Below are positions 11,201 to 23,725 of a stretch of DNA of 23,778 nt, one piece after another. Source of the DNA: a virus. The notes under the pieces are model-generated. The model did no database searches, was not told the DNA's origin, and worked only from the letters and a program-made list of their open reading frames with translations. The stretch covers positions 1 to 23,778 of IMG/VR virus record IMGVR_UViG_3300044636_000047, one strand, 5' to 3'. Numbering within the stretch: the stretch's first letter is position 1; every line of letters starts with the position of its first letter. The translations under genes and the position numbers were made by a program.

Positions 11201-11573
11201 TGAAAATACAACTATTGAGACGGGTCGCTCTTATCTTGTCTTGTGTAATGATAACAGGATTGTTTCTTTCATACCTTCAGACGAGATAAAAGAATCATCA
11301 CATGCTCTTGTGAAGTTCTTAAGTTACAAGCAGTTACCATACAAGGATGATGAAATGTTTGTTGTATCATTTAAGCCAAGGATTACGAAGGCTGGAAAGA
11401 AGATGGCATCTCTCACACTTGCAGATACAAGTAGAGATTTACACTCCATTACAGTTTTTCCTACATCTTTTGCAAAAGCGTATATGCATATTGAAGAAGG
11501 AAAGTCATACAAGTTCGATTTTGGCAAGACTAAAGACGGAACAGTAACATTGGAGGATGTACATGTCAGTTAG
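8298..11573 (+). CDS. dnaE: DNA polymerase III alpha subunit (C-family) with PHP domain
   Basis: This encodes 1091 aa. The ATG at 8298 follows the previous stop by 1 nt; an in-frame ATG at 8253 would only add residues from the preceding gene's 3' end. Domains: N-terminal PHP (about 1-250) with 'LHVHTHFSLFDG' (H7-x-H9), 'AITDHGTL' and 'TPDCHH'; 'GPGRGSSAGS' (pol3 nucleotide-binding loop); catalytic aspartates D423 and D425 in 'PDIDTDIQD' and D568 in 'KIDALGLKTL'; helix-hairpin-helix region; and a C-terminal OB-fold-like part ('YIFMGMVKSIKRG', about 935 on). It is near bacterial DnaE length (~1160), so this is a complete replicase. The metal-binding residues of PHP look largely kept, so proofreading activity is possible. 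I see no obvious clamp-binding pentapeptide. Confidence 0.93.
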   Translation: MNYVGLHVHTHFSLFDGIATPEEYVNRAVELGMPAIAITDHGTLSGHRELHRIAKAKGIKPILGLEGYMCADISDTRDKSEREGQQDLVYNHIILLAKNQIGLENLNKISELSWTDGFFKKPRFDFTILEKYKEGIIVTSACPSSVLVKALEEEEFALAKKYISWFKERFEDDYYIEVMPHNEAHINKYLIELADEFGIKVVVTPDCHHVDSSQKEVQEFKLLMNTHGKFVKDATYEKSKKKGSMMERLDYLYGEDRQITFNKFDIHLLSYEEIKSAMEAQGIDRPDIYSNTLLLADTVGDYGIQEGLNLLPVQYKSPDKELAKVALEGLAERGLSENKEYLDRLEEELQIIKDKKFAPYFLVVSNMINWAKKEEIMVGPGRGSSAGSLVCYALKITDIDPIEHNLLFFRFINPERNDFPDIDTDIQDTRREEVKDYLVRQYRHVASIATFLQFTGKGIVRDVARVLNIPLSDVNKVLKTVDTWDDFCTSKSTYEFREKYPEVEIYGEQLRGRIRGTGIHAAGVVTAKEPIFRYAPLETRSSTGSDERIPVVGVDMEEAERIGLIKIDALGLKTLSVLKNTIDIIKERDGKKIDLLKIKMDDANVYQMLSDGYTKGVFQCEAAPYTNLLVKMGVKNLNELAASNALVRPGAMNTIGKDYVDRKHGRQNISYTHQVLKQFTEDTYGCILYQEQVMQACVHLGGMSMSEADKVRKIIGKKKDAKEFDQFKEKFVEGASRYITPHAALDLWHDFEAHAGYSFNKSHAVAYSTLSYWTAWLKYYYPLEFMYSVLKNEKDKDARTEYLIEAKRMGISIKLPHINDSDIDFKIEGKGIRFGLSAIKFISDKIGERYISARPFSSYKELEEFTFTKGNGVNSRALQALRAIGAATFNDNPRNDEEIKENLYEYLNLPEFNITIPSHYYAFIQDIVDFEEKGSYIFMGMVKSIKRGTGWSRVEILDKTGSVGIFDDENTTIETGRSYLVLCNDNRIVSFIPSDEIKESSHALVKFLSYKQLPYKDDEMFVVSFKPRITKAGKKMASLTLADTSRDLHSITVFPTSFAKAYMHIEEGKSYKFDFGKTKDGTVTLEDVHVS

Positions 11574-15304: not shown

Positions 15305-15539
15305 TAATCTAAACATAACAGTTGACCAAGTAAATAATCCATTGCACTACACATCAGATCCATCGGGTATTGAGTGCATTGAGATAACTCGTCATCGTAA
15401 TTTTAATATTGGTAATGCTTTCAAGTATCTTTGGAGAGCAGGACTTAAGGATGAAGCAAAGACAATACAAGATTTAGAGAAGGCAATTTTCTATATTAAA
15501 GATGAGATCAACAGGCTGGAAGGCAAGTATGTCAACTGA
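15297..15539 (+). CDS. DUF3310 (SaV-like) phage protein
   Basis: This encodes 80 aa from ATG 15297, which has 'GAGGAGGAA' ~6 nt upstream; an earlier in-frame ATG at 15267 lies inside the previous mini-gene and lacks this site. The sequence 'VNNPLHYTSDPSGIECIEIT', then 'GNAFKYLWRAGLKD' and 'DLEKAIFYIKDEI', matches the DUF3310 pattern (HY...IECIE...GNAiKYl.R...K...DL.KA..Yi). This small family is widespread in phages; a nucleotide-related role has been suggested but is not settled. It is coupled to the terminase small subunit by an 11-nt overlap. Confidence 0.8.
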   Translation: MSDNLNITVDQVNNPLHYTSDPSGIECIEITRHRNFNIGNAFKYLWRAGLKDEAKTIQDLEKAIFYIKDEINRLEGKYVN

Positions 15540-16065
15540 AGACGATCTAGTTAAGCATCTTGACCAAGTCAACTTGGTAGTGGAAGAATACCTAAAGGGC
15601 AACGATCCAACAGTAATCTCAAAACAACTTGCTATACCAAGACAAAAGGTTGTGACACTTATTAACGAGTGGAAGGTTATGGCATCTGCTAATGATGCTA
15701 TCCGTGCTCGTGCTAAGGAAGCCCTTGCTGCTGCAGACACACACTACAGTAAGTTAGTTTCTCGCACATACGAGGTAATTGATGAAGCATCTATGACTAA
15801 CAATCTTAGTGCAAAGACTGCTGCAATTAAACTTGTTATGGACATTGAGTCAAAGCGTATTGACATGCTTCAGAAGGCTGGATTGCTTGAGAACAAAGAA
15901 CTTGCTGAAGAGATGATGGAAATTGAAAAGCGTCAAGAGATTCTTGTTCTTATTTTAAAAGATATTGCCTCAGAATATCCACAGGTTCGTGATGAGATTA
16001 TGCGTAGGCTTTCTTCATTCGCAAAAGACAACGAGGTGATTACAGTTGTCCACGATGTTCAATGA
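15529..16065 (+). CDS. Terminase small subunit
   Basis: This encodes 178 aa from ATG 15529, an internal start within the DUF3310 end. Residues about 24-48 ('DPTVISKQLAIPRQKVVTLINEWK') form a helix-turn-helix that would recognise the packaging site. The rest is helical ('AKTAAIKLVMDIESKRIDMLQKAGLL', 'EEMMEIEKRQEILVLILKDIA'), as expected for the oligomerisation core of small terminases. The gene overlaps the large terminase by 20 nt. The assignment rests on HTH plus helical core plus position. Confidence 0.75.
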   Translation: MSTEDDLVKHLDQVNLVVEEYLKGNDPTVISKQLAIPRQKVVTLINEWKVMASANDAIRARAKEALAAADTHYSKLVSRTYEVIDEASMTNNLSAKTAAIKLVMDIESKRIDMLQKAGLLENKELAEEMMEIEKRQEILVLILKDIASEYPQVRDEIMRRLSSFAKDNEVITVVHDVQ

Positions 16066-17842
16066 GTTTCTTGAAGCACTTCAAGATGATCACTTTGAAG
16101 AAACTCCAGTAGATGCAAGAACTTTTGTTGAAGGTGAAGCATACCTTGGACAGCCACCCCTGTCTGATATTCAGTACGACATCGTAGAAGCCATGAGTCA
16201 GATCTATCGAAAAGAAGATCTTATAAATTTGCTGGGGGAAGAAAAAGGAACTCAGTACTACAACAAGTATACAAAGAATGAAATCATTCTTCAACTTGGC
16301 AAGGGATCTGGAAAAGACTTCACATCAACAGTAGCATGCTCATACATCGTATACAAACTTCTATGCCTTAAAGACCCAGCAAAATATTTTGGTAAGCCCT
16401 CTGGAGATGCTATTGACCTAATCAACGTTGCTATTAACGCACAACAGGCCAAGAATGTTTTCTTTAAAGGTTTTAAATCAAAGATTGAAAGATCACCTTG
16501 GTTTGCAGGAAAGTACAATGCTAAAGCAGATTCAGTTGAGTTTGACAAGTCTATTACAGTTTACTCTGGTCACTCTGAACGTGAGTCACATGAGGGCTTG
16601 AACTTGCTTCTTGCAGTTCTTGATGAGATTTCTGGTTTTGCATCTGAAGTTGGAACAGGTAATGAACAGGGCAAGACTGCTGATAATATCTACAAGGCTT
16701 TCCGTGGTTCTGTAGACTCTCGTTTCCCTGACTTGGGCAAGGTTGTTCTTCTTTCTTTTCCAAGATATCCAGGAGACTTTATCTCAGAAAAGTATGATGA
16801 TGTTATTGCTGAAAAAGAGGTTATTGAAAGAACACACAAGTTTACTATCAACCCACTGCTTCCAGAAGATAGCCCAGACAACTCATTTGAAATTTCCTGG
16901 GATGAAGATCAGATACTTTCATACAAGTATCCAGGAGTGTTTGCACTAAAGAGACCTACATGGGAGGTAAATCCTACTCGCAAGATTGATGACTTTATGA
17001 TTGCTTTTATGACAGACCTTGGAGATGCGATGATGCGCTTTGCTTGTGTCCCAACATTTGCATCAGATGCATTCTTTAAGCAGGTAGAAAAAGTAAGAGC
17101 CTGCATGACATTAAGAAACCCAGTAGATACATTTAAAAGATTTGACGAAGCCTTTAAGCCAGATCCAACTAAGAAGTATTATGTACATGCTGACCTTGCC
17201 CAGAAACACGATAAGTGTGCTGTCGCTATTGCACATGTAGAAAAATGGGTAAACATACAAGTCATCAACAATTACGAACAAGTAGCACCAATTGTAGTAG
17301 TAGATGCAGTGGCATGGTGGGAACCAAAGATTGAAGGCCCAGTTAATCTTTCAGAAGTTAAACAGTGGATTCAGAACCTTAGAAGGCTTGGGTTTGACAT
17401 TGGTATGGTTTCGTTTGACCGTTGGCAATCATTTGATATTCAAAATGAATTGAAGCAGGTTGGAATGAAGACTGATACTGTTTCTGTTGCTAAGAAGCAC
17501 TACGAGGACATGGCTATGCTTGTATATGAGGAAAGACTTGCTATGCCTGCAATTGATTTATTGTTTGATGAACTAACACAGTTAAAGATTATGAAAAATG
17601 ACAGAGTTGACCACCCCCGCAAAAAGTCAAAGGACTTGGCTGATGCTGTGTGTGGAGCAATATTTGGGGCAATATCACATACCCCAAAAAATATAGACAC
17701 TGAAGTAGAGGTTCATACTTTTAAGGATAGACCAAAAACTCCAGAGGAGCAATTTGACTTAGAAAGTCGCAATGTGATACAATATAAACCTAGCCAAATA
17801 GAAGAAATAAAAGACTATTTGGACAGACTAAAAACACTATAA
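16046..17842 (+). CDS. Terminase large subunit (packaging ATPase/nuclease)
   Basis: This encodes 598 aa. The TTG at 16046 is preferred, since 'GAGGTGAT' lies ~6 nt upstream; the next ATG (16055) would have a long spacing. Role: ATP-driven packaging of DNA into proheads and cutting of the concatemer. Motifs: Walker A 'LGKGSGKD' (residues 84-91), with Asp where most have Ser/Thr; Walker B 'LLAVLDE' (188-194, D193-E194); nuclease aspartates D383 ('HADLAQKHD'), 'VSFDRWQS', and D533 ('KDLADAVCGAI'). Length is typical. It is upstream of the accessory block, not beside the tail genes, so the virion genes presumably continue outside the window. Confidence 0.9.
   Translation: MSTMFNEFLEALQDDHFEETPVDARTFVEGEAYLGQPPLSDIQYDIVEAMSQIYRKEDLINLLGEEKGTQYYNKYTKNEIILQLGKGSGKDFTSTVACSYIVYKLLCLKDPAKYFGKPSGDAIDLINVAINAQQAKNVFFKGFKSKIERSPWFAGKYNAKADSVEFDKSITVYSGHSERESHEGLNLLLAVLDEISGFASEVGTGNEQGKTADNIYKAFRGSVDSRFPDLGKVVLLSFPRYPGDFISEKYDDVIAEKEVIERTHKFTINPLLPEDSPDNSFEISWDEDQILSYKYPGVFALKRPTWEVNPTRKIDDFMIAFMTDLGDAMMRFACVPTFASDAFFKQVEKVRACMTLRNPVDTFKRFDEAFKPDPTKKYYVHADLAQKHDKCAVAIAHVEKWVNIQVINNYEQVAPIVVVDAVAWWEPKIEGPVNLSEVKQWIQNLRRLGFDIGMVSFDRWQSFDIQNELKQVGMKTDTVSVAKKHYEDMAMLVYEERLAMPAIDLLFDELTQLKIMKNDRVDHPRKKSKDLADAVCGAIFGAISHTPKNIDTEVEVHTFKDRPKTPEEQFDLESRNVIQYKPSQIEEIKDYLDRLKTL
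17754..17783 (+). promoter_or_regulatory. Putative promoter for the exported surface-protein gene
   Basis: TTGACT at 17754-17759, an 18-nt spacer, then TACAAT at 17778-17783 with TGA just before it (extended -10). It lies inside the terminase 3' end and gives a predicted start near 17790, about 70 nt before the ATG at 17860. Confidence 0.5.
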
Positions 17843-17859: not shown

Positions 17860-19032
17860 ATGAATTCATTCAAGAAAATCGCACTAGCCGTGGTTGCAGC
17901 CATGACTTTGGGCATGGTCGCAGTAGCACCTGCAAATGCTACAGTAATGACAGTAGCGGTAACGCTAGACGGAACAGCAAACACAACTAATGGTGTAATT
18001 GCTACCCCTGCCACATTGCCAGTACCAGCAGATAACACAATCGATGCAGCAGATGCACTACGCTTTGTGGCAACAGTAGCAGCAGGAACATCAGTTTCTG
18101 CAGTAGCAACTAACGCAACAATCGTATCAGCACTACACACATCAGCAGCACCAGTCGGAGCATCGTCAGGATCATCATCTTTGACAATTGCAACAGGAAC
18201 TGGAACAACTGCAACATTCTTTGTCTACACAAAGACAACAGCAATTGGAACCGTTGTAATTAACAATGGTGGAACAACTCTTACATACTATGTACAGGGT
18301 ACTGCTGGCAAGATCAACAACCTAACAGTTTCAGCACCTTCAGCAGGTGCAGCAGGAACTAAGCAAGACATCGTTGTAACTGCAACAGATGCATTTGGCA
18401 ACAAGGTATCTGGTAAGTCAATTACAGCAACTGTATTTGCTTCAACAGCAGTTATGGATACAGCAACAGTAACAACTGGTGCTACACTAACAGATTTTGG
18501 AACAGCAACCTTTAAGGCTACTCTTCCAACAACAGGAACACGCTCACTAATTACTTTTGCACCAACAACATCATCAGATGCAGTTGCAGCAGCAGTAGTT
18601 GGTTTGACTGCTCCAACACTTGCACCATTCGCAGAGATTGCAGTTCGTGATCTAGTATCAGAACTTGCTGCACAGACTGCTGCAAAGATTGCTGCAGAGA
18701 ATGCTCTTGCTGCTGCCATTGCTAAGGCTGCATCAGATGCTGCTGCTGCAAAGGTTGCTTCAGATGCAGTACTTGCTGCTAAGAATGCAGAACTTGCAAA
18801 GTTCAAGGACGACACAACAACAGCAGTTGCTCAGGCAAAGGCTGCTTCAGATAAGGCACTTGCAGATGCAAAGGTAGCATCAGATGCTGCTCTTGCTGCT
18901 AAGGATGCACAGATTGCTAAGTTGACTGCAGATAATGCAGCAGCACTTTCTTCTTTGAAGAAGTCATTCAATGCACTTGCTACAAAGTGGAACAAGAAGA
19001 ATCCAAAGGCTAAGGTTACTCTAGTTAAGTAA
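17860..19032 (+). CDS. Exported S-layer-like surface protein (Ig-like domain, coiled coil)
   Basis: This encodes 390 aa. A canonical Sec signal peptide (residues 1-27: 'NSFKK', hydrophobic core, 'APANA' before T28) is followed by Ala/Thr-rich strands and, near 150-250, an Ig-like (Big-type) segment 'DIVVTATDAFGNKVSGK'. Residues about 260-365 form an Ala-rich coiled coil containing an imperfect repeat of 'AKVASDAxLAAKxA' at 297-310 and 337-350. The Lys-rich end is 'KWNKKNPKAKVTLVK'. It resembles surface-layer or cell-wall proteins of actinobacteria, not known virion parts. RBS 'AAGGAG' upstream; strong terminator downstream. Likely secreted onto the host envelope; host origin is an inference. 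Confidence 0.75.
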   Translation: MNSFKKIALAVVAAMTLGMVAVAPANATVMTVAVTLDGTANTTNGVIATPATLPVPADNTIDAADALRFVATVAAGTSVSAVATNATIVSALHTSAAPVGASSGSSSLTIATGTGTTATFFVYTKTTAIGTVVINNGGTTLTYYVQGTAGKINNLTVSAPSAGAAGTKQDIVVTATDAFGNKVSGKSITATVFASTAVMDTATVTTGATLTDFGTATFKATLPTTGTRSLITFAPTTSSDAVAAAVVGLTAPTLAPFAEIAVRDLVSELAAQTAAKIAAENALAAAIAKAASDAAAAKVASDAVLAAKNAELAKFKDDTTTAVAQAKAASDKALADAKVASDAALAAKDAQIAKLTADNAAALSSLKKSFNALATKWNKKNPKAKVTLVK

Positions 19033-19048
19033 TTAGTCCAACATTAAA

Positions 19049-19078
19049 GGGGTTACCAATTACGGTAGCCCCTTTTTT
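19049..19078 (+). terminator. Rho-independent terminator
   Basis: Arms GGGGTTACC (19049-19057) and GGTAGCCCC (19064-19072) pair over 9 bp with one G-T wobble, around a 6-nt loop AATTAC, followed by six T (19073-19078). It sits 17 nt after the surface-protein stop and would make that gene a monocistronic or operon-ending unit. Confidence 0.9.
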
Positions 19079-19089
19079 GTGCAATAAAA

Positions 19090-19098
19090 TGGTATAAT
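19090..19098 (+). promoter_or_regulatory. Extended -10 promoter for the PA14-protein gene
   Basis: TGG plus TATAAT (19093-19098) lies 12 nt after the terminator. Predicted start near 19105 gives a ~32-nt leader that includes the 'AAGGGGGAAAGG' ribosome-binding site. No clear -35 exists; the -35 region falls on the terminator stem. Confidence 0.55.
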
Positions 19099-19136
19099 CA
19101 TCCTATCAGACATGTCGTCTGCAAGGGGGAAAGGTA

Positions 19137-21284
19137 ATTAAACGACTACTAAGAATAGTAACAGCCACAGTTCTAGCCTTTGGCTGGCTACTTATAGCCC
19201 CCCAGGAAGCCCACTCTGATGATCCACTCACAGTTGCAGCCCAAGAAATACAGGAACTTAACGATAGCGTAGATGACCTTGGCTATCAAGATGATTTTAT
19301 AGATCTTATAGAGATAGCAGAAAATAAGTTTACCTCAGCCACAAATGCGAAGGAACTTAAAGATGATGCCTATGATGCCCACGAAAATGCAGTAGAAGCA
19401 GAAGCCACAGCCTTAGAAGCAAAGAACCTTGCCCAGTCAAATGTGGATGGTCAGACAGCCACAGTAGCCTTGGCCCTTGAACACAAAGACAACGCTCTTG
19501 AAGAAAGAAACGATGCACAGGATGCTCTCAGCATAGCCAATATTAATGTTCAAACCACACAATCTAATATGCAGAGTGCTGGAGGAACAGGTTTGGCATA
19601 CACTGTTTATACTCTTGTTAGGCAGGGTAATGTTGCTACCCCAGGATCTGTGCTTTGTTCTGGCACTTGGAACTCTAACTCTATGCAACTTCCAGTTTGT
19701 GGCAATAGATATGAGAACTTTATTGTTAAATTTGCTGGAACTATTACTGTTCCATCATGGTTTACAACAACATATTTCGCAGGCTCTACAGATGATGGAT
19801 TTAGAATGTATGTAGACGGGCAACTTGCTGTTGATAACTGGGTAGAGCAAGGAACTACTTGGAGCGATTATTCACCAGTATATGATGTTAGCGAAGACAA
19901 AACATTGAGTGTAGAGATTTGGTGGTATAACGGTGGAGGACCAGGATCTTATCATCTTGGCTGGGCTATACCTGGAGGATGGACTGGAGCAGGTTGTGAC
20001 TATGCTGGAAATCCAAGAGTATGGGGACAAAATTTTAGTTGTAATCTTAATACATTTTCTTCTGGATCAGGACCAACTCAATCACAAATAAATGCTTACA
20101 ATGATGCTGTTGCAGCACAGGCTATAGCACAAACAAACTATAACAATAAATTGGCAGTATACAATGACAAACTAAGCGTATACAACTCTGAGAATACAAC
20201 ACTGTCATCAATAAATCAGATTTTACAAACAAAGACACAGGAACATCTTGATGCCATTGCAGATACAGAAGATGCTTTAGACTTGAAGAATAGCAGAATA
20301 GAGATATACAATCAGTCAATAATTGATTTAAATAATGCTATTAGTGATGCATGGGAATATTATTATGAACAATCAGAAAGAGAACTTAATGCTGCTATTG
20401 CTCAAGCAGCAGCCAATGCTGCAGCCAATCAGCCTACCCCAGAACCCACTCCAGAACCTTCTCCAGAACCAACCGAAGAGCCAACAGATGAACCAACTCC
20501 AGAGCCTTCGCCAGACCCAACTGATGAGCCTACAGATGAACCAACGCCTGAACCTACCCCAGAGCCATCACCAGAGCCTACAGTAGACCCTACAGAAGAG
20601 CCTACACCTGAACCTACCCCAGAAGTTACCCCAGATCCAGAACCAACTGAAGAGCCAGTTATAGAACCTACCGAAGAACCTTCACCAGAACCTTCACCAG
20701 AACCTGGACCAGATCCAGAAGATAATCCTTGGACTGAACCAGATGTAGAAATTAAAGATGAAGTGTTAGCAGCCCTCATTCCTGAAAAGGGTACAGGAAC
20801 AGCAGAAGATTTATCTGGAGTTATTGCTAACCTTACAAGCAAGGACAACAAATTAGTTACTCTTTCCCCTGAACAAGTAACAGCAGTTAGCCAAACCCTT
20901 AAAGCATTGACGCAAGAAGCAAAAGTAGAAGTTGCAGAAGACCTTGGTATTAAGCCGTCAGAAGTTGCAGAGATTGCTGAGCAGATGAAGTCTAACCCAG
21001 CACTTGCTGAAGCATTTGTTGAGTTTACTGACAGAGCAGAATCAGCAGGGGATACCCCAATGCCATTTACATTAGCAGATGCAGTAACAGAAGTACAGAC
21101 AGAAGCATTTTTAGCAGACCCACTTGGTGCAGTATTTGAAGTGGATGTTACAGAACTCCTATCCAATTTCTCTGAGTTGGGTATGGACATGACAGACGAT
21201 CAGAGAGAGAAAGCCCAGGAAGTCATTATCCCAGTAATCATTGTTTCACAGATTGCAAATGTAATGATTGGGATGAGGAGGTAA
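19137..21284 (+). CDS. Exported PA14-domain protein with Pro/Glu-rich linker
   Basis: This encodes about 715 aa if started at ATT 19137; no ATG, GTG or TTG occurs in frame before GTG 19443, and that start would remove the signal peptide. Evidence for ATT: 'AAGGGGGAAAGG' just upstream and an immediate Sec-type N-terminus (K-R-L-L-R, core 'IVTATVLAFGWLLIA', 'EAHS' cleavage). Order: signal (1-27), acidic coiled coil (30-150), PA14-like domain (about 154-282, 'FAGSTDDGFRMYVDGQLAVD', W- and G-rich end), coiled coil (290-430), Pro/Glu/Thr/Ser repeat linker (about 432-533), helical C-terminal region ending in a hydrophobic stretch. PA14 folds usually bind glycans. Likely a surface or virion adhesin. 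Role uncertain. Confidence 0.7.
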   Translation: MKRLLRIVTATVLAFGWLLIAPQEAHSDDPLTVAAQEIQELNDSVDDLGYQDDFIDLIEIAENKFTSATNAKELKDDAYDAHENAVEAEATALEAKNLAQSNVDGQTATVALALEHKDNALEERNDAQDALSIANINVQTTQSNMQSAGGTGLAYTVYTLVRQGNVATPGSVLCSGTWNSNSMQLPVCGNRYENFIVKFAGTITVPSWFTTTYFAGSTDDGFRMYVDGQLAVDNWVEQGTTWSDYSPVYDVSEDKTLSVEIWWYNGGGPGSYHLGWAIPGGWTGAGCDYAGNPRVWGQNFSCNLNTFSSGSGPTQSQINAYNDAVAAQAIAQTNYNNKLAVYNDKLSVYNSENTTLSSINQILQTKTQEHLDAIADTEDALDLKNSRIEIYNQSIIDLNNAISDAWEYYYEQSERELNAAIAQAAANAAANQPTPEPTPEPSPEPTEEPTDEPTPEPSPDPTDEPTDEPTPEPTPEPSPEPTVDPTEEPTPEPTPEVTPDPEPTEEPVIEPTEEPSPEPSPEPGPDPEDNPWTEPDVEIKDEVLAALIPEKGTGTAEDLSGVIANLTSKDNKLVTLSPEQVTAVSQTLKALTQEAKVEVAEDLGIKPSEVAEIAEQMKSNPALAEAFVEFTDRAESAGDTPMPFTLADAVTEVQTEAFLADPLGAVFEVDVTELLSNFSELGMDMTDDQREKAQEVIIPVIIVSQIANVMIGMRR
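20430..20735 (+). repeat. Pro/Glu-rich imperfect tandem repeats in the PA14 protein
   Basis: About 100 codons of alternating Pro with Glu/Thr/Ser/Asp (units of type PEPT, PEPS, PTEE, PTDE). At DNA level the units of 6-12 nt (such as CCAGAACC, CCAACTGA) recur imperfectly, so expansion or contraction by recombination is plausible. Such linkers usually span cell-wall layers or act as a rigid stalk. Confidence 0.8.
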
Positions 21285-21285
21285 T

Positions 21286-21492
21286 ATGAAAATAATAACA
21301 AAGGTTGTGAAGGGATTCTTCACATGGCTAAAAGATGCAGGGGTGGAGATAATCGCACAAGCCTTTACCCTCCTTGGCTTCTTTATTGCATGGTTAACAT
21401 TAACGGGATCAGCAAGAGACATTGTTGGTATTGCAGTACTTGCAACCACAGTAATCTGGCTAATAACAATCCCACTAAGAAAGGAGGACTAA
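21286..21492 (+). CDS. Small membrane protein, holin-like
   Basis: This encodes 68 aa, starting 1 nt after the PA14 gene, with 'GAGGAGG' upstream of its ATG. A basic amphipathic N-terminus ('IITKVVKGFFTWLKD') precedes two hydrophobic segments (about 21-41 'IIAQAFTLLGFFIAWLTL' and 45-62 'DIVGIAVLATTVIWLITI'), then a short charged tail. Small size, two membrane segments and a neighbour of the same type suggest a holin or antiholin. No endolysin is recognised in the window, so the lysis role is not confirmed. Confidence 0.55.
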   Translation: MKIITKVVKGFFTWLKDAGVEIIAQAFTLLGFFIAWLTLTGSARDIVGIAVLATTVIWLITIPLRKED

Positions 21493-21494
21493 AT

Positions 21495-21779
21495 ATGGCA
21501 ACTAAAAAGGTAGTAGAGCCTCCTAAGAAGGAGCACCCACAAAAGGCTTTGACAAATGTCTTGATGCGTATCGTAGCAGTGTTCGCTGCTTCTGGTCTAT
21601 CAGTACTTGGTGCTGGAGCAGTAGTAGGAATTGATACAGTCCAGGCAGTTATGCTTGCGGGTCTATTAGGCGTAGCCACCGTTATTGAAAGGCTTGCAAG
21701 GGCTTTTTTGGACGATGGAAAACTCACATTGGCAGAGATCAATGATGCGTTTAAGACGGTAGACAAAAAGGCTAATTAG
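21495..21779 (+). CDS. Second small membrane protein, holin-like
   Basis: This encodes 94 aa from ATG 21495, with 'AAGGAGG' (21481-21487) 7 nt upstream. Longer readings of this frame start inside the preceding gene and lack such a site. A Lys/Pro-rich cytoplasmic N-terminus ('KKVVEPPKKEHPQKA') is followed by two membrane helices (about 22-45 and 47-64), separated by a short turn, and an acidic/basic C-terminal tail ('DDGKLTLAEINDAFK'). This matches the class II holin pattern of many actinophages. With the gene before it, it could be a holin/antiholin pair. Confidence 0.6.
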   Translation: MATKKVVEPPKKEHPQKALTNVLMRIVAVFAASGLSVLGAGAVVGIDTVQAVMLAGLLGVATVIERLARAFLDDGKLTLAEINDAFKTVDKKAN

Positions 21780-21795
21780 TCATTATTGACGATAG

Positions 21796-21825
21796 TTGAC
21801 AGCCCTCTCTGGGCAATGGTATACT
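21796..21825 (+). promoter_or_regulatory. Strong promoter of the Ntn-hydrolase gene
   Basis: TTGACA at 21796-21801, 18-nt spacer, TATACT at 21820-21825 with TGG before it. Predicted start near 21832. The leader contains 'GGAGAGGG' about 7 nt before the ATG at 21857. Confidence 0.7.
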
Positions 21826-21851
21826 TAAGTATCACCTATCTGGAGAGGGCT
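21801..21851 (+). promoter_or_regulatory. Inverted repeat around the promoter (operator candidate)
   Basis: AGCCCTCTC (21801-21809) and GAGAGGGCT (21843-21851) are perfect 9-bp inverted arms that flank the -10 box. Between them, ATACTTAAGTAT (21821-21832) is a perfect 12-bp palindrome overlapping the -10 and the predicted start. The right arm includes the ribosome-binding site. Together they could be a repressor site, and if read from upstream the stem would hide the ribosome-binding site. Confidence 0.45.
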
Positions 21852-21856
21852 TTGTC

Positions 21857-22381
21857 ATGACCTGTATTGTTGCTTTACGCCATGAAGATAAGATTTATAT
21901 GGCTGGAGATCGTGGAGCATCAGATGATGGAGTTATTCTTTCACTTGAGTCACCAAAGGTTTGGAAAGTTGGTCCGTATCTAATTGGTTATGCTGGATCA
22001 ATGGACGGGGACAGAATTAGACACAACTTTAGACCATCAGCACCCAACATTAAAGACACAGATAAGTTTATGCATACAAAGTTTATCAAAGAACTTCGTG
22101 AATTTTATAACGAGTTCTGGATTGACACATCTAAAGAAGGCGAACTTAGTTTGATTATTGGCATTCGTGGTGAAATCTACGAGCACAGTTCTGGAGATAT
22201 GTCTTTATCTAAATACTCATTGCCATATGTTTCTATCGGTTCAGGATCAGAGTATGCATACGGGGTTTTATATGCAACAGATAAGCAAAAAAATGCAAGG
22301 AATAGAGTAAATCAAGCGGTATCTGCAGCAATTAAATTTAACCCATCATGCATGGGTCCAGTTGACATCATAAGCGCTTAG
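21857..22381 (+). CDS. Proteasome-beta/HslV-like Ntn hydrolase
   Basis: This encodes 174 aa. The start is fixed by the fold: after Met removal, Thr2 becomes the N-terminal nucleophile ('MTCIVALRH'). Other matches: D18 ('YMAGDRGAS', equivalent to proteasome D17), K34 ('SPKVWKVG', proteasome K33), G44/G47 ('IGYAGSMDGD', the oxyanion-related glycine), 'IGSGSEYA' (127-134, the S129 region) and D170 ('VDIIS', near proteasome D166). No propeptide. Similar proteins occur in other phages and bacteria as putative Ntn hydrolases. The role may be proteolysis or amidohydrolysis; assembly into a ring is not shown. It has a strong promoter and candidate operator. Confidence 0.78.
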   Translation: MTCIVALRHEDKIYMAGDRGASDDGVILSLESPKVWKVGPYLIGYAGSMDGDRIRHNFRPSAPNIKDTDKFMHTKFIKELREFYNEFWIDTSKEGELSLIIGIRGEIYEHSSGDMSLSKYSLPYVSIGSGSEYAYGVLYATDKQKNARNRVNQAVSAAIKFNPSCMGPVDIISA

Positions 22382-22390
22382 GGGTATACT
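22362..22390 (+). promoter_or_regulatory. Consensus promoter with leaderless start
   Basis: TTGACA (22362-22367), exactly 17 nt, TATACT (22385-22390), within the 3' end of the Ntn-hydrolase gene. The predicted start, 7 nt after the -10, is base 22397, the A of the next ATG. No Shine-Dalgarno is present. Confidence 0.7.
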
Positions 22391-22396
22391 TAGTAT

Positions 22397-22618
22397 ATGA
22401 ACGAAGAATTTGAAGAGATCCTTAAGGACATTCAGAATATAGAGTCAGACTTTGACGAGTTCGAGATATGGCTTGACAACGGAATTGAACGGGGATGGAT
22501 AACAGAGCCGTTCTGCAATACTCATGAAGGAGATCCTTACATGACAGACGAAGAACAGCAAGAGTGGGAAGAAGGCGGAGACCCATGTCAAGTAGTTTTA
22601 AAAATCAAACAACAATAA
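22397..22618 (+). CDS. Small acidic protein, unknown function
   Basis: This encodes 73 aa with an extreme acidic composition ('EEFEEILKDIQNIESDFDEFE'). The end 'ITEPFCNTHEGDPYMTDEEQ', 'EWEEGGDPCQVVLKI' has two fixed Cys (C40, C64) and I recall this 'PFC.THeG' / 'EEGgDPC' pattern from small actinophage proteins of unknown role. It has its own consensus promoter and a predicted leaderless mRNA. It could be an inhibitor or a regulatory partner of the proteases on either side, but nothing here shows this. Confidence 0.6.
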   Translation: MNEEFEEILKDIQNIESDFDEFEIWLDNGIERGWITEPFCNTHEGDPYMTDEEQQEWEEGGDPCQVVLKIKQQ

Positions 22619-22631
22619 TAAGGAGAATAAA

Positions 22632-23606
22632 ATGAAGAAAGTACTACTAGCATTACTATCAATTACAATTGCATTCACAGCAATGCAGCCATCACAGGCA
22701 CAAGATGAGCGAGTCCTTGCAATTATTGACTCCTCTATCAACTCAAACAATTTTCCATCAATCATTCACGAAGTTTGTTTTACAACTGTAAAGTCTAAGA
22801 TTGTTGCTCAGAATATGTCATGCCCTAACGGAGAACTATTTATGGAGGGCAAGGGAGCAGCAGCATCACCTTGGCCAGCATCCCTAAACAATGCCACATA
22901 TCATGGAGACTCTATGGTTAAGGCTGCACTCGCAAAGACTCCAAACATCAAGATTGTATTTATTAGAGTCTACAATGTTTCTTCTCTTGGAAACTCATCA
23001 ACTCCATTTAATGGATCAACAATCCTTAGTGCTATCGACTGGGTCAATAAGAATGCATCAAAGTATAGCATTGATGCTGTGTCAATTAGTCAGTCTGGTA
23101 TTAATACATCAACAAGATCACTACACATTGGCTGCACTGATCAATCAATCTTTAGTCCATTTGTAACTCAGGTTTCACAGTTAAATGCACAGAACATTCC
23201 TACTTTTGTTGCCACTGGCAATGATGGTCTAAAGACAATTGTTGGTTTCCCAGCATGTGTTACAGGAGTTATCGGTGTTGGATCATCAACCGATGTTCTG
23301 GATGCTGGAACTTCTGTAGGGGCAACGGCTACAAATAGAGGTCCAGGCCTTGACATGGTTGCTCCTGGAACAGTTAGTATTACAAAGTACAATGGATCAC
23401 AGACAACTGCATCTGGAACTTCTGTGTCAACTGCACTTGCAGCAGCATCTTATGTAAACGGAAATACATTCAAGTCATTTACACAATACATAGATACTCT
23501 TCCAAAGAAAACAATTAAGTTTGTTGATTCTGTAGTTGTAAATAGCAACAAGACAAGAACAACTGTTTGGGAACCGACAAGAGTAATCACCTCTAACTTG
23601 CCATAA
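22632..23606 (+). CDS. Exported subtilisin-like (S8) serine protease
   Basis: This encodes 324 aa, with 'AAGGAG' about 7 nt before the ATG. Signal peptide residues 1-23 (KK start, hydrophobic core, 'PSQA' cleavage). Catalytic triad: D33 ('LAIIDSSIN'), H91 ('TYHGDSM'), S264 ('ASGTSVSTALA'); oxyanion N197 ('VATGNDG'). Cys49, 64, 168 and 209 may pair. The mature chain begins only ~9 residues before D33, so no I9-type propeptide is visible, unlike most secreted subtilases. It would act outside the cytoplasm on host or viral surface proteins. After S264 only ~60 residues remain, a compact catalytic domain. Phage-encoded, Sec-exported subtilases are unusual. Confidence 0.85.
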   Translation: MKKVLLALLSITIAFTAMQPSQAQDERVLAIIDSSINSNNFPSIIHEVCFTTVKSKIVAQNMSCPNGELFMEGKGAAASPWPASLNNATYHGDSMVKAALAKTPNIKIVFIRVYNVSSLGNSSTPFNGSTILSAIDWVNKNASKYSIDAVSISQSGINTSTRSLHIGCTDQSIFSPFVTQVSQLNAQNIPTFVATGNDGLKTIVGFPACVTGVIGVGSSTDVLDAGTSVGATATNRGPGLDMVAPGTVSITKYNGSQTTASGTSVSTALAAASYVNGNTFKSFTQYIDTLPKKTIKFVDSVVVNSNKTRTTVWEPTRVITSNLP

Positions 23607-23643: not shown

Positions 23644-23716
23644 TGCCCTATAACTCAGTTGGTAGAGTGCCGAACTGTTAATTCGGATGTCCCTGGATCG
23701 AGGCCAGGTGGGGCAG
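23644..23716 (+). tRNA. tRNA-Asn (GTT)
   Basis: A full cloverleaf can be drawn: acceptor TGCCCTA/TGGGGCA (7 bp, one G-T), D stem ACTC/GAGT, anticodon stem CCGAA/TTCGG with loop CTGTTAA (anticodon GTT, 23677-23679), 5-nt variable loop, T stem CCTGG/CCAGG, and discriminator G at 23716. CCA is not encoded. The T loop is ATCGAGG, with A in place of the usual T54. It probably supplies Asn for phage AAT/AAC codons. Confidence 0.9.
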
Positions 23717-23725
23717 CGGTCTGGT

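Follow-up and report, generated by a model that had tools for sequence, protein, structure and literature searches.

A conserved block of genes for three putatively exported proteins, linked to holin-like and endolysin genes, in uncultured phages related to the Stanwilliamsviridae

We analyzed the IMG/VR virus record IMGVR_UViG_3300044636_000047 over its entire length (23,778 bases, 39% GC; hereafter the window) and focused on a block of genes located downstream of the terminase, three of which encode proteins predicted to be exported through Sec. The replication and packaging genes of the window are in the same order as those of the Streptomyces phage Kenrey (Stanwilliamsviridae), and its terminase large subunit (terL) is 55% identical to the terminase of Kenrey. 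Judged by terL identity and replication-gene order, the virus appears to be a phage related to Stanwilliamsviridae, and this kinship with a Streptomyces phage suggests that the hosts of these uncultured viruses are probably actinobacteria. The nine long relatives of the window range from 98 to 119 kb. Downstream of its terminase, Kenrey presents tRNAs, HNH endonucleases and hypothetical genes; the window instead presents the block, in the order given here. All genes were found at the positions reported in an earlier note on this DNA, which had been made from the sequence alone and which suggested a freshwater origin.

16046 to 17842, + strand: terminase large subunit (terL), used as the synteny anchor; matches Kenrey and phrog_2
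17860 to 19032, + strand: putatively Sec-exported surface protein with immunoglobulin-like (Ig-like) strands and a long helix (ATG start, 390 amino acids)
19137 to 21284, + strand: putatively exported PA14 spike (ATT start), composed in order of a helix, the PA14 head, a helix, a Pro/Glu linker, a helical domain and a C-terminal hydrophobic helix
21286 to 21492, + strand: holin-like membrane protein 1, with two hydrophobic segments by hydropathy
21495 to 21779, + strand: holin-like membrane protein 2, with hydrophobic segments and a match to phrog_443 (holin; E 9e-4)
21857 to 22381, + strand: proteasome/HslV-like Ntn hydrolase (Pfam Proteasome, 29 bits against a cut-off of 22.4; phrog_1040, E 1.1e-20)
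22397 to 22618, + strand: acidic protein of 73 amino acids, without Pfam or PHROG family
22632 to 23606, + strand: putatively exported subtilase (Pfam Peptidase_S8, 33.9 bits against a cut-off of 21.8)
23644 to 23717, + strand: tRNA-Asn(gtt), 3' of the subtilase and followed, in relatives, by the endolysin further on

Inspection and hydropathy (threshold of 1.6) served to assess the signal peptides. On this basis we agree that the products of the genes at 17860, 19137 and 22632 carry Sec-type signal peptides, the N-terminus of the subtilase falling below the hydropathy threshold. The surface protein, for instance, begins with MNSFKKIALAVVAAMTLGMVAVAPANA and presents a hydrophobic segment at residues 7-25. 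Signal-peptide-like N-termini recur among the relatives of all three proteins, with the exception of one surface-protein row (L135), for which another start was called.

Relatives were collected in three separate searches, with the subtilase, the terminase or the surface protein as the query, and 161 distinct contigs were tallied after the removal of 14 duplicate loci; the set obtained with the subtilase profile comprised 57 contigs, 22 of 79 having been dropped as already seen. The surface-protein gene followed terL in all 115 contigs holding both, and the three exported genes were found together within 3.7-9.4 kb in 51 of the 161 contigs, many of the others being short fragments. Among the 80 loci fetched through terL, those with enough flanking sequence presented the surface protein in 46 of 48 cases, the spike in 21 of 23, the two holin-like genes in 22 of 23 and 19 of 22, the Ntn hydrolase and the 73-residue protein in 18 of 18 each, and the subtilase in 15 of 16; the two loci scored as lacking the spike (L138 and L142) still carry its anchor domain. 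Counted in the same way, the subtilase-fetched contigs presented the spike (27/29), the holin-like genes (34/34 and 33/34), the Ntn hydrolase (41/42), the 73-residue protein (56/56) and a CHAP endolysin (50/51). Linkage in related phages, which the earlier note had proposed as its own test, is clearly positive on these figures. A second phage group of 12 contigs, which includes G003 with a terminase 55% identical to that of the window, has the genes in another order: spike, holin-like, Ntn, subtilase, 73-residue protein and surface protein. That the linkage was retained despite this reordering argues for a shared role. The block lies apart from the capsid and tail genes in both G002 and G003. 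Across IMG/VR, the surface protein is encoded in at least 488 stretches and the subtilase in at least 524, and a search of 50,697 phage records returned no match for the surface protein or the whole spike and three weak matches for the subtilase; the spike anchor domain matched four Rhizobium phages at E 0.09.

The window contains no endolysin, as had been stated before, because the record ends 172 nucleotides after the subtilase stop codon; relatives carry a CHAP endolysin. The last 180 bases of the window are 100% identical to contig L003, which continues with approximately 5 kb of cargo, followed at 11568 by a CHAP protein. L027 is 100% identical to the window in the terminase, the surface protein and the spike, and presents subtilase, tRNA-Asn and CHAP in order. 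A CHAP gene was found in 53 of 56 contigs, a denominator that favors hits since it counts contigs extending 7 kb or more past the subtilase as well as those in which CHAP was found; the gene was located downstream of the subtilase in 43 of them (median gap of 130 bases) and between holin-like gene 1 and the Ntn gene in nine. In the reordered group, the latter position was observed in eight of the 12 contigs, and no CHAP gene was detected in three. All three CHAP proteins that were scanned scored above the Pfam cut-off (44.9 bits against 26 in G002), and these proteins resemble annotated endolysins of Streptomyces phages; the annotated endolysin of Kenrey itself had no tblastn match in G002 or G003. 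The linkage of this predicted endolysin in relatives indicates that the block belongs to the lysis region. The cargo of approximately 5 kb between subtilase and endolysin is optional (L003 6512-11531, L178 4029-8982) and includes, by inspection, glycosyltransferase-, oxygenase- and carbamoyltransferase-like genes. Distant from the block, G002 encodes another exported protein that appears transglycosylase-like by inspection (L180 14125-14715, - strand).

The genes of the block diverge at different rates. Over 23 contigs with the full set, the median pairwise identity was lowest for the subtilase (58%) and the spike (68%), followed by the 73-residue protein (81%), the surface protein and the Ntn hydrolase (82% each), the holin-like proteins (86% and 90%), the CHAP protein (87%) and the terminase (89%). 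Different parts of the block match the window in different relatives: L027 is 100% identical to the window through the spike and holin-like gene 1 but only 65% identical in the subtilase, and L003, 86% identical in the spike, reaches 100% over the stretch that begins with the holin-like genes and ends with the subtilase. By these comparisons, the block recombines and is a mosaic of parts.

The assignment of the last gene to the subtilisin-like proteases is borne out by the Peptidase_S8 profile and by the Asp/His/Ser triad with an oxyanion Asn. These four residues (Asp33, His91, Asn197 and Ser264) are each invariant in 55 of 55 distinct sequences. Invariant catalytic residues combined with fast change fit a host-facing arms race better than decay. 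Two of the five relatives scanned (L128 and L033) had no Pfam match at E 0.01, and the subtilase had no sequence match to solved structures at the same threshold. By inspection, only about 10 residues separate the likely cleavage site from the catalytic Asp; this leaves no room for a propeptide, as would suit an enzyme that is active only briefly.

The surface protein matched neither a Pfam nor a PHROG family, and three of its relatives were likewise without Pfam family. The AlphaFold model (pLDDT, i.e., predicted local distance difference test, of 77, from a shallow alignment of 14 sequences) presents Ig-like strands plus a single long helix. The Ig-like fold resembles SbsB, which is one of many Ig-like proteins that it resembles. 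The description of this protein as surface-layer-like therefore stands as a resemblance, and no family assignment backs it. Relative to nine other genes of G002, its codon usage is nearest to that of the major capsid gene (0.635, the rest ranging from 0.442 to 0.603), which suggests that the surface protein is highly expressed. In G002, a gene of 262 codons, sulfotransferase-like by inspection, lies between the surface protein and the spike (L177 18621-19409).

The spike had been described as a PA14 protein with a Pro/Glu stretch, and we confirmed this description: the Pfam PA14 score is barely above the cut-off (26.0 against 24 bits) and is backed by structure. In the AlphaFold model (mean pLDDT of 70, from a shallow alignment of 19 sequences), two long and confident helices (residues 52-147 and 315-430) flank the PA14 head, and the Pro/Glu linker is of low confidence. 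These helices would measure approximately 14 and 17 nm at 1.5 A per residue and may fold against each other into a hairpin that bears the head on its tip. The best structural matches are PA14 domains, mostly sugar-bound, with a Foldseek E of 3.5e-6 to one sugar-bound PA14. Residues 46-441 also align with enterococcal PrgA (6z9l; Z 15.2 over 233 residues), a match that calls for caution because long helices raise Z. The Asp-Asp-Gly triplet is the calcium motif of PA14, and 88 of 101 distinct spikes contain it; the spikes without it include two further types of head (examples in L133 and L169). Moreover, heads are exchanged between spikes: 127 protein pairs have anchor domains at least 85% identical and heads less than 35% identical. 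No LPxTG motif was found in the spike, which ends in a hydrophobic helix instead.

The spike also has an unusual start codon. In the window, the first ATG, GTG or TTG of its frame occurs only at 19443; the frame is open further 5', and the signal peptide begins at the ATT at 19137-19139. The coordinate given in the earlier note is thus right, and the start is non-canonical. Start codons of the ATT type are very rare in bacteria. At the aligned position of 106 distinct relatives we counted 50 ATT, 23 ATA and three ATC (76 in total), 30 TTG and no ATG or GTG, with a search motif that permitted ATG and GTG too. Six spikes were missed by the first motif and a wider one placed five of them; one open reading frame (L279) was left out since its start could not be placed. 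Among the 76 spikes with ATT, ATA or ATC, 74 have no in-frame canonical start upstream, 46 have none in the next 30 codons and 44 have neither; in the other 30, the following 30 codons contain a TTG or, less often, a GTG, and an internal start is conceivable. An assembly error was ruled out as the origin of the ATT, given that ATT, ATA or ATC is found in 76 of 106 distinct proteins and TTG in the other 30. The starts of neighboring genes were picked from ATG, GTG and TTG only, so that this control cannot reveal starts of the ATT type. All 76 of these spikes met a Shine-Dalgarno-like pattern, which is a broad one. With partial coverage of the literature, we found no earlier AUU-, AUA- or ATT-type start conserved across a phage gene family.

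Both holin-like proteins possess hydrophobic segments, and only the second matches a holin family, weakly (phrog_443); its best PHROG is phrog_26427 (E 2.6e-25), labelled nuclease. Holin-like gene 1 begins -7 to +2 bases from the spike stop codon in 30 of the 36 loci measured, and a Shine-Dalgarno-like run for it sits in the last spike codons; spike translation might therefore affect holin-like protein 1. The metagenome-assembled phage DSL-LC01 (OQ999401, L340 11465-11990) encodes a 50.7% relative of holin-like protein 2, located 3' of another small gene and among other genes, with the rest of the block not nearby. The proteasome-like hydrolase, in addition to its Pfam score, has the N-terminal Thr with Asp and Lys partners: over 52 distinct sequences, Thr2 and Lys34 are invariant and Asp18 is present in 48, with Glu in the other four. 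We searched for promoter- and terminator-like sites by a consensus scan of the region and by comparison with shuffles. The candidate sites, together with the gene that precedes terL, are the following.

15502 to 16065, + strand: phrog_9507 protein (E 5.1e-47, a family of unknown function), "terS" by position only; adjoins terL in relatives
19046 to 19075, + strand: terminator-like hairpin 3' of the surface-protein gene (free energy of -23.1 kcal/mol, z -6.12, a value that none of 200 shuffles equalled; absent from the list of the consensus scan)
19093 to 19098, + strand: TATAAT, a candidate -10 box for the spike; in 60 of 79 distinct leaders this hexamer is located 43 to 45 bases 5' of the start codon; absent from the list of the consensus scan
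21796 to 21825, + strand: promoter-like sequence TTGACA-18-TATACT preceding the Ntn gene and agreeing with the consensus at 11 of 12 positions, the -35/-10 pair being present in 35 of 45 distinct upstream regions
22362 to 22390, + strand: promoter-like site of the 73-residue protein gene (11 of 12 matches), identically spaced in 34 of 43 distinct upstream regions

The last of these sites ends six bases 5' of the ATG, such that the gene of the 73-residue protein likely has a leaderless phage mRNA. At 21801-21852, a nine-base inverted repeat (AGCCCTCTC and GAGAGGGCT) surrounds the Ntn -10 box and is found in several of six upstream regions, where it could be an operator.

We propose that the block constitutes an expanded lysis or exit module of an uncultured actinophage family, a reading to which we assign a probability of roughly one half. 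Its core would be an ordinary lysis set of two holin-like membrane proteins and the CHAP endolysin past the end of the window, and the three Sec-exported proteins would act outside the host, presumably late in infection. The subtilase may cut host surface proteins and thereby loosen a protein coat that holds debris and virions after peptidoglycan cleavage; it perhaps destroys receptors as well. The C-terminal helix of the spike would anchor it in the membrane, its long helical stalk would carry the lectin-like head across the wall, and the surface protein, presumably abundant, would coat the cell. Together, the two may mask receptors so that the infected cell and its fragments are bound neither by rival phages nor by the phage's own progeny. 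The dose of spike might be rationed, through IF3, by the conserved weak start (AUU, AUA, AUC or UUG). We suggest more tentatively, and consider it rather doubtful, that this represents an undescribed kind of lysis, in which a propeptide-less, Sec-exported subtilase is the last lysis enzyme and acts on a proteinaceous coat in a spanin-like manner, coupled to a lectin-like spike dosed by an AUU-type start. The earlier note had called the block an envelope-remodelling or lysis module. The lysis half of that phrase gains support from the linked endolysin; lysogenic conversion in the strict sense does not, as no integrase was recognized in the translations at hand of the window and of part of G002, neither of which is fully annotated. 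If our reading is true, these are the genes that let such phages exit cells and close them to rivals, and a protease can take part in the lysis of bacteria that bear a protein coat. The literature on phage subtilases and lysis cassettes and on acI phages, in the part covered, yielded no account of this block.

Several observations weigh against this proposal. Three contigs of the reordered group (L075-L077) have the subtilase and no detected CHAP gene, and the nearest named relatives, such as Kenrey, are without the block. The contigs are related and partly near-identical, and the counts are therefore not independent. The host protein coat, the supposed substrate of the protease, is hypothetical: when 84,980 species genomes were scanned twice for the surface protein, 61 and 76 pattern-matching stretches came out, none confirmed by tblastn, a step that its coiled-coil composition may defeat. 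Similarly, a receptor shared by spike and tail is hypothetical, since no relative of the spike head was detected among the other proteins of the window, G002 or G003, tail proteins included, and the swapping of heads suits exclusion or adhesion as well as lysis. A hairpin in the spike leader was considered as an RNA element and rejected: its sequence recurs, but the folding in the window equals that of shuffles (z 0.27), and 13 of 17 leaders of TTG-start spikes have no stem of more than four pairs. Finally, the region contains 11 promoter-like sites against 12.9 in shuffles and five terminator-like sites against 4.2, and its transcription units consequently rest only on conserved site positions.

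Alternatively, it is possible, although we consider it on the unlikely side, that the exported proteins serve purely to shut out other phages before lysis and neighbor the lysis genes merely as fellow late genes. This would account for the swapping of lectin-like heads and the fast divergence, as well as for the structural resemblance of the spike to PrgA, which is a surface-exclusion protein. The terminator-like hairpin after the surface-protein gene and the candidate promoter of the spike itself would also fit, and T5 Llp offers a precedent (PMC9586334). Masking receptors, however, requires no exported protease; moreover, the linkage to the holin-like and CHAP genes survives reordering, and no head common to spike and tail proteins was found. 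The surface genes could also have been acquired from hosts and retained, for other benefits, in a late region permissive to such genes. Hosts typically encode proteins of the surface type, and optional cargo occupies this same region in L003 and G002. We nevertheless find such an origin improbable in view of the near-universal presence of the genes, their fixed neighbors, the invariant catalytic residues of the subtilase and the outcome of the two host scans. It is very improbable that the three proteins are virion components, for example of the tail or as capsid decoration, with signal-peptide-like ends not used for export. Their position after the terminase, the Ig-like domains known in phage structural proteins and the capsid-like codon usage of the surface protein point in that direction, but recurrent signal-peptide-like N-termini, the hydrophobic anchor of the spike and, in G002 and G003, the separation of the block from the genes for capsid and tail argue against it.

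The proposed exit module can be compared to several known systems. It shares with the holin-endolysin cassettes of actinophages small membrane proteins linked, in the relatives rather than in the window, to a CHAP endolysin similar to those of Streptomyces phages, and differs from them by the addition of an exported subtilase, a spike, a surface protein, a proteasome-like hydrolase and the 73-residue protein. With its PA14 carbohydrate-binding fold, the spike is akin to the PA14-bearing RTX adhesin MpAFP, and its long helices with a head recall the arrangement of PrgA; it differs from the latter in having a C-terminal hydrophobic helix and no LPxTG motif, and the PrgA match rests partly on the long helices. 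In a 2025 survey of viral lytic proteins, single-component endolysins predominate in Stanwilliamsviridae, and the main text is without the word subtilisin (PMC12596118). T5 Llp is a phage-encoded receptor blocker of a lytic phage that prevents binding to infected cells and lysed fragments (PMC9586334). The masking proposed for the spike and the surface protein resembles this block of phage binding; Llp, however, is a lipoprotein of small size and blocks a single outer-membrane receptor, whereas the present block encodes a long spike with swappable heads and a surface protein, both of predicted function. Regarding the start codon, infC has an AUU start under IF3 control. The nearest well-studied case is Streptomyces sigR, whose GTC start is repressed by IF3 (PMC5472188). 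As in these two genes, a weak start codon appears to be retained by selection in the spike; unlike them, it concerns a whole phage gene family with ATT, ATA, ATC or TTG, for which IF3 control is a proposal only. If our reading is true, this family, with more than 100 distinct homologues that avoid ATG at a single position, offers a natural test system for the control of non-AUG starts.

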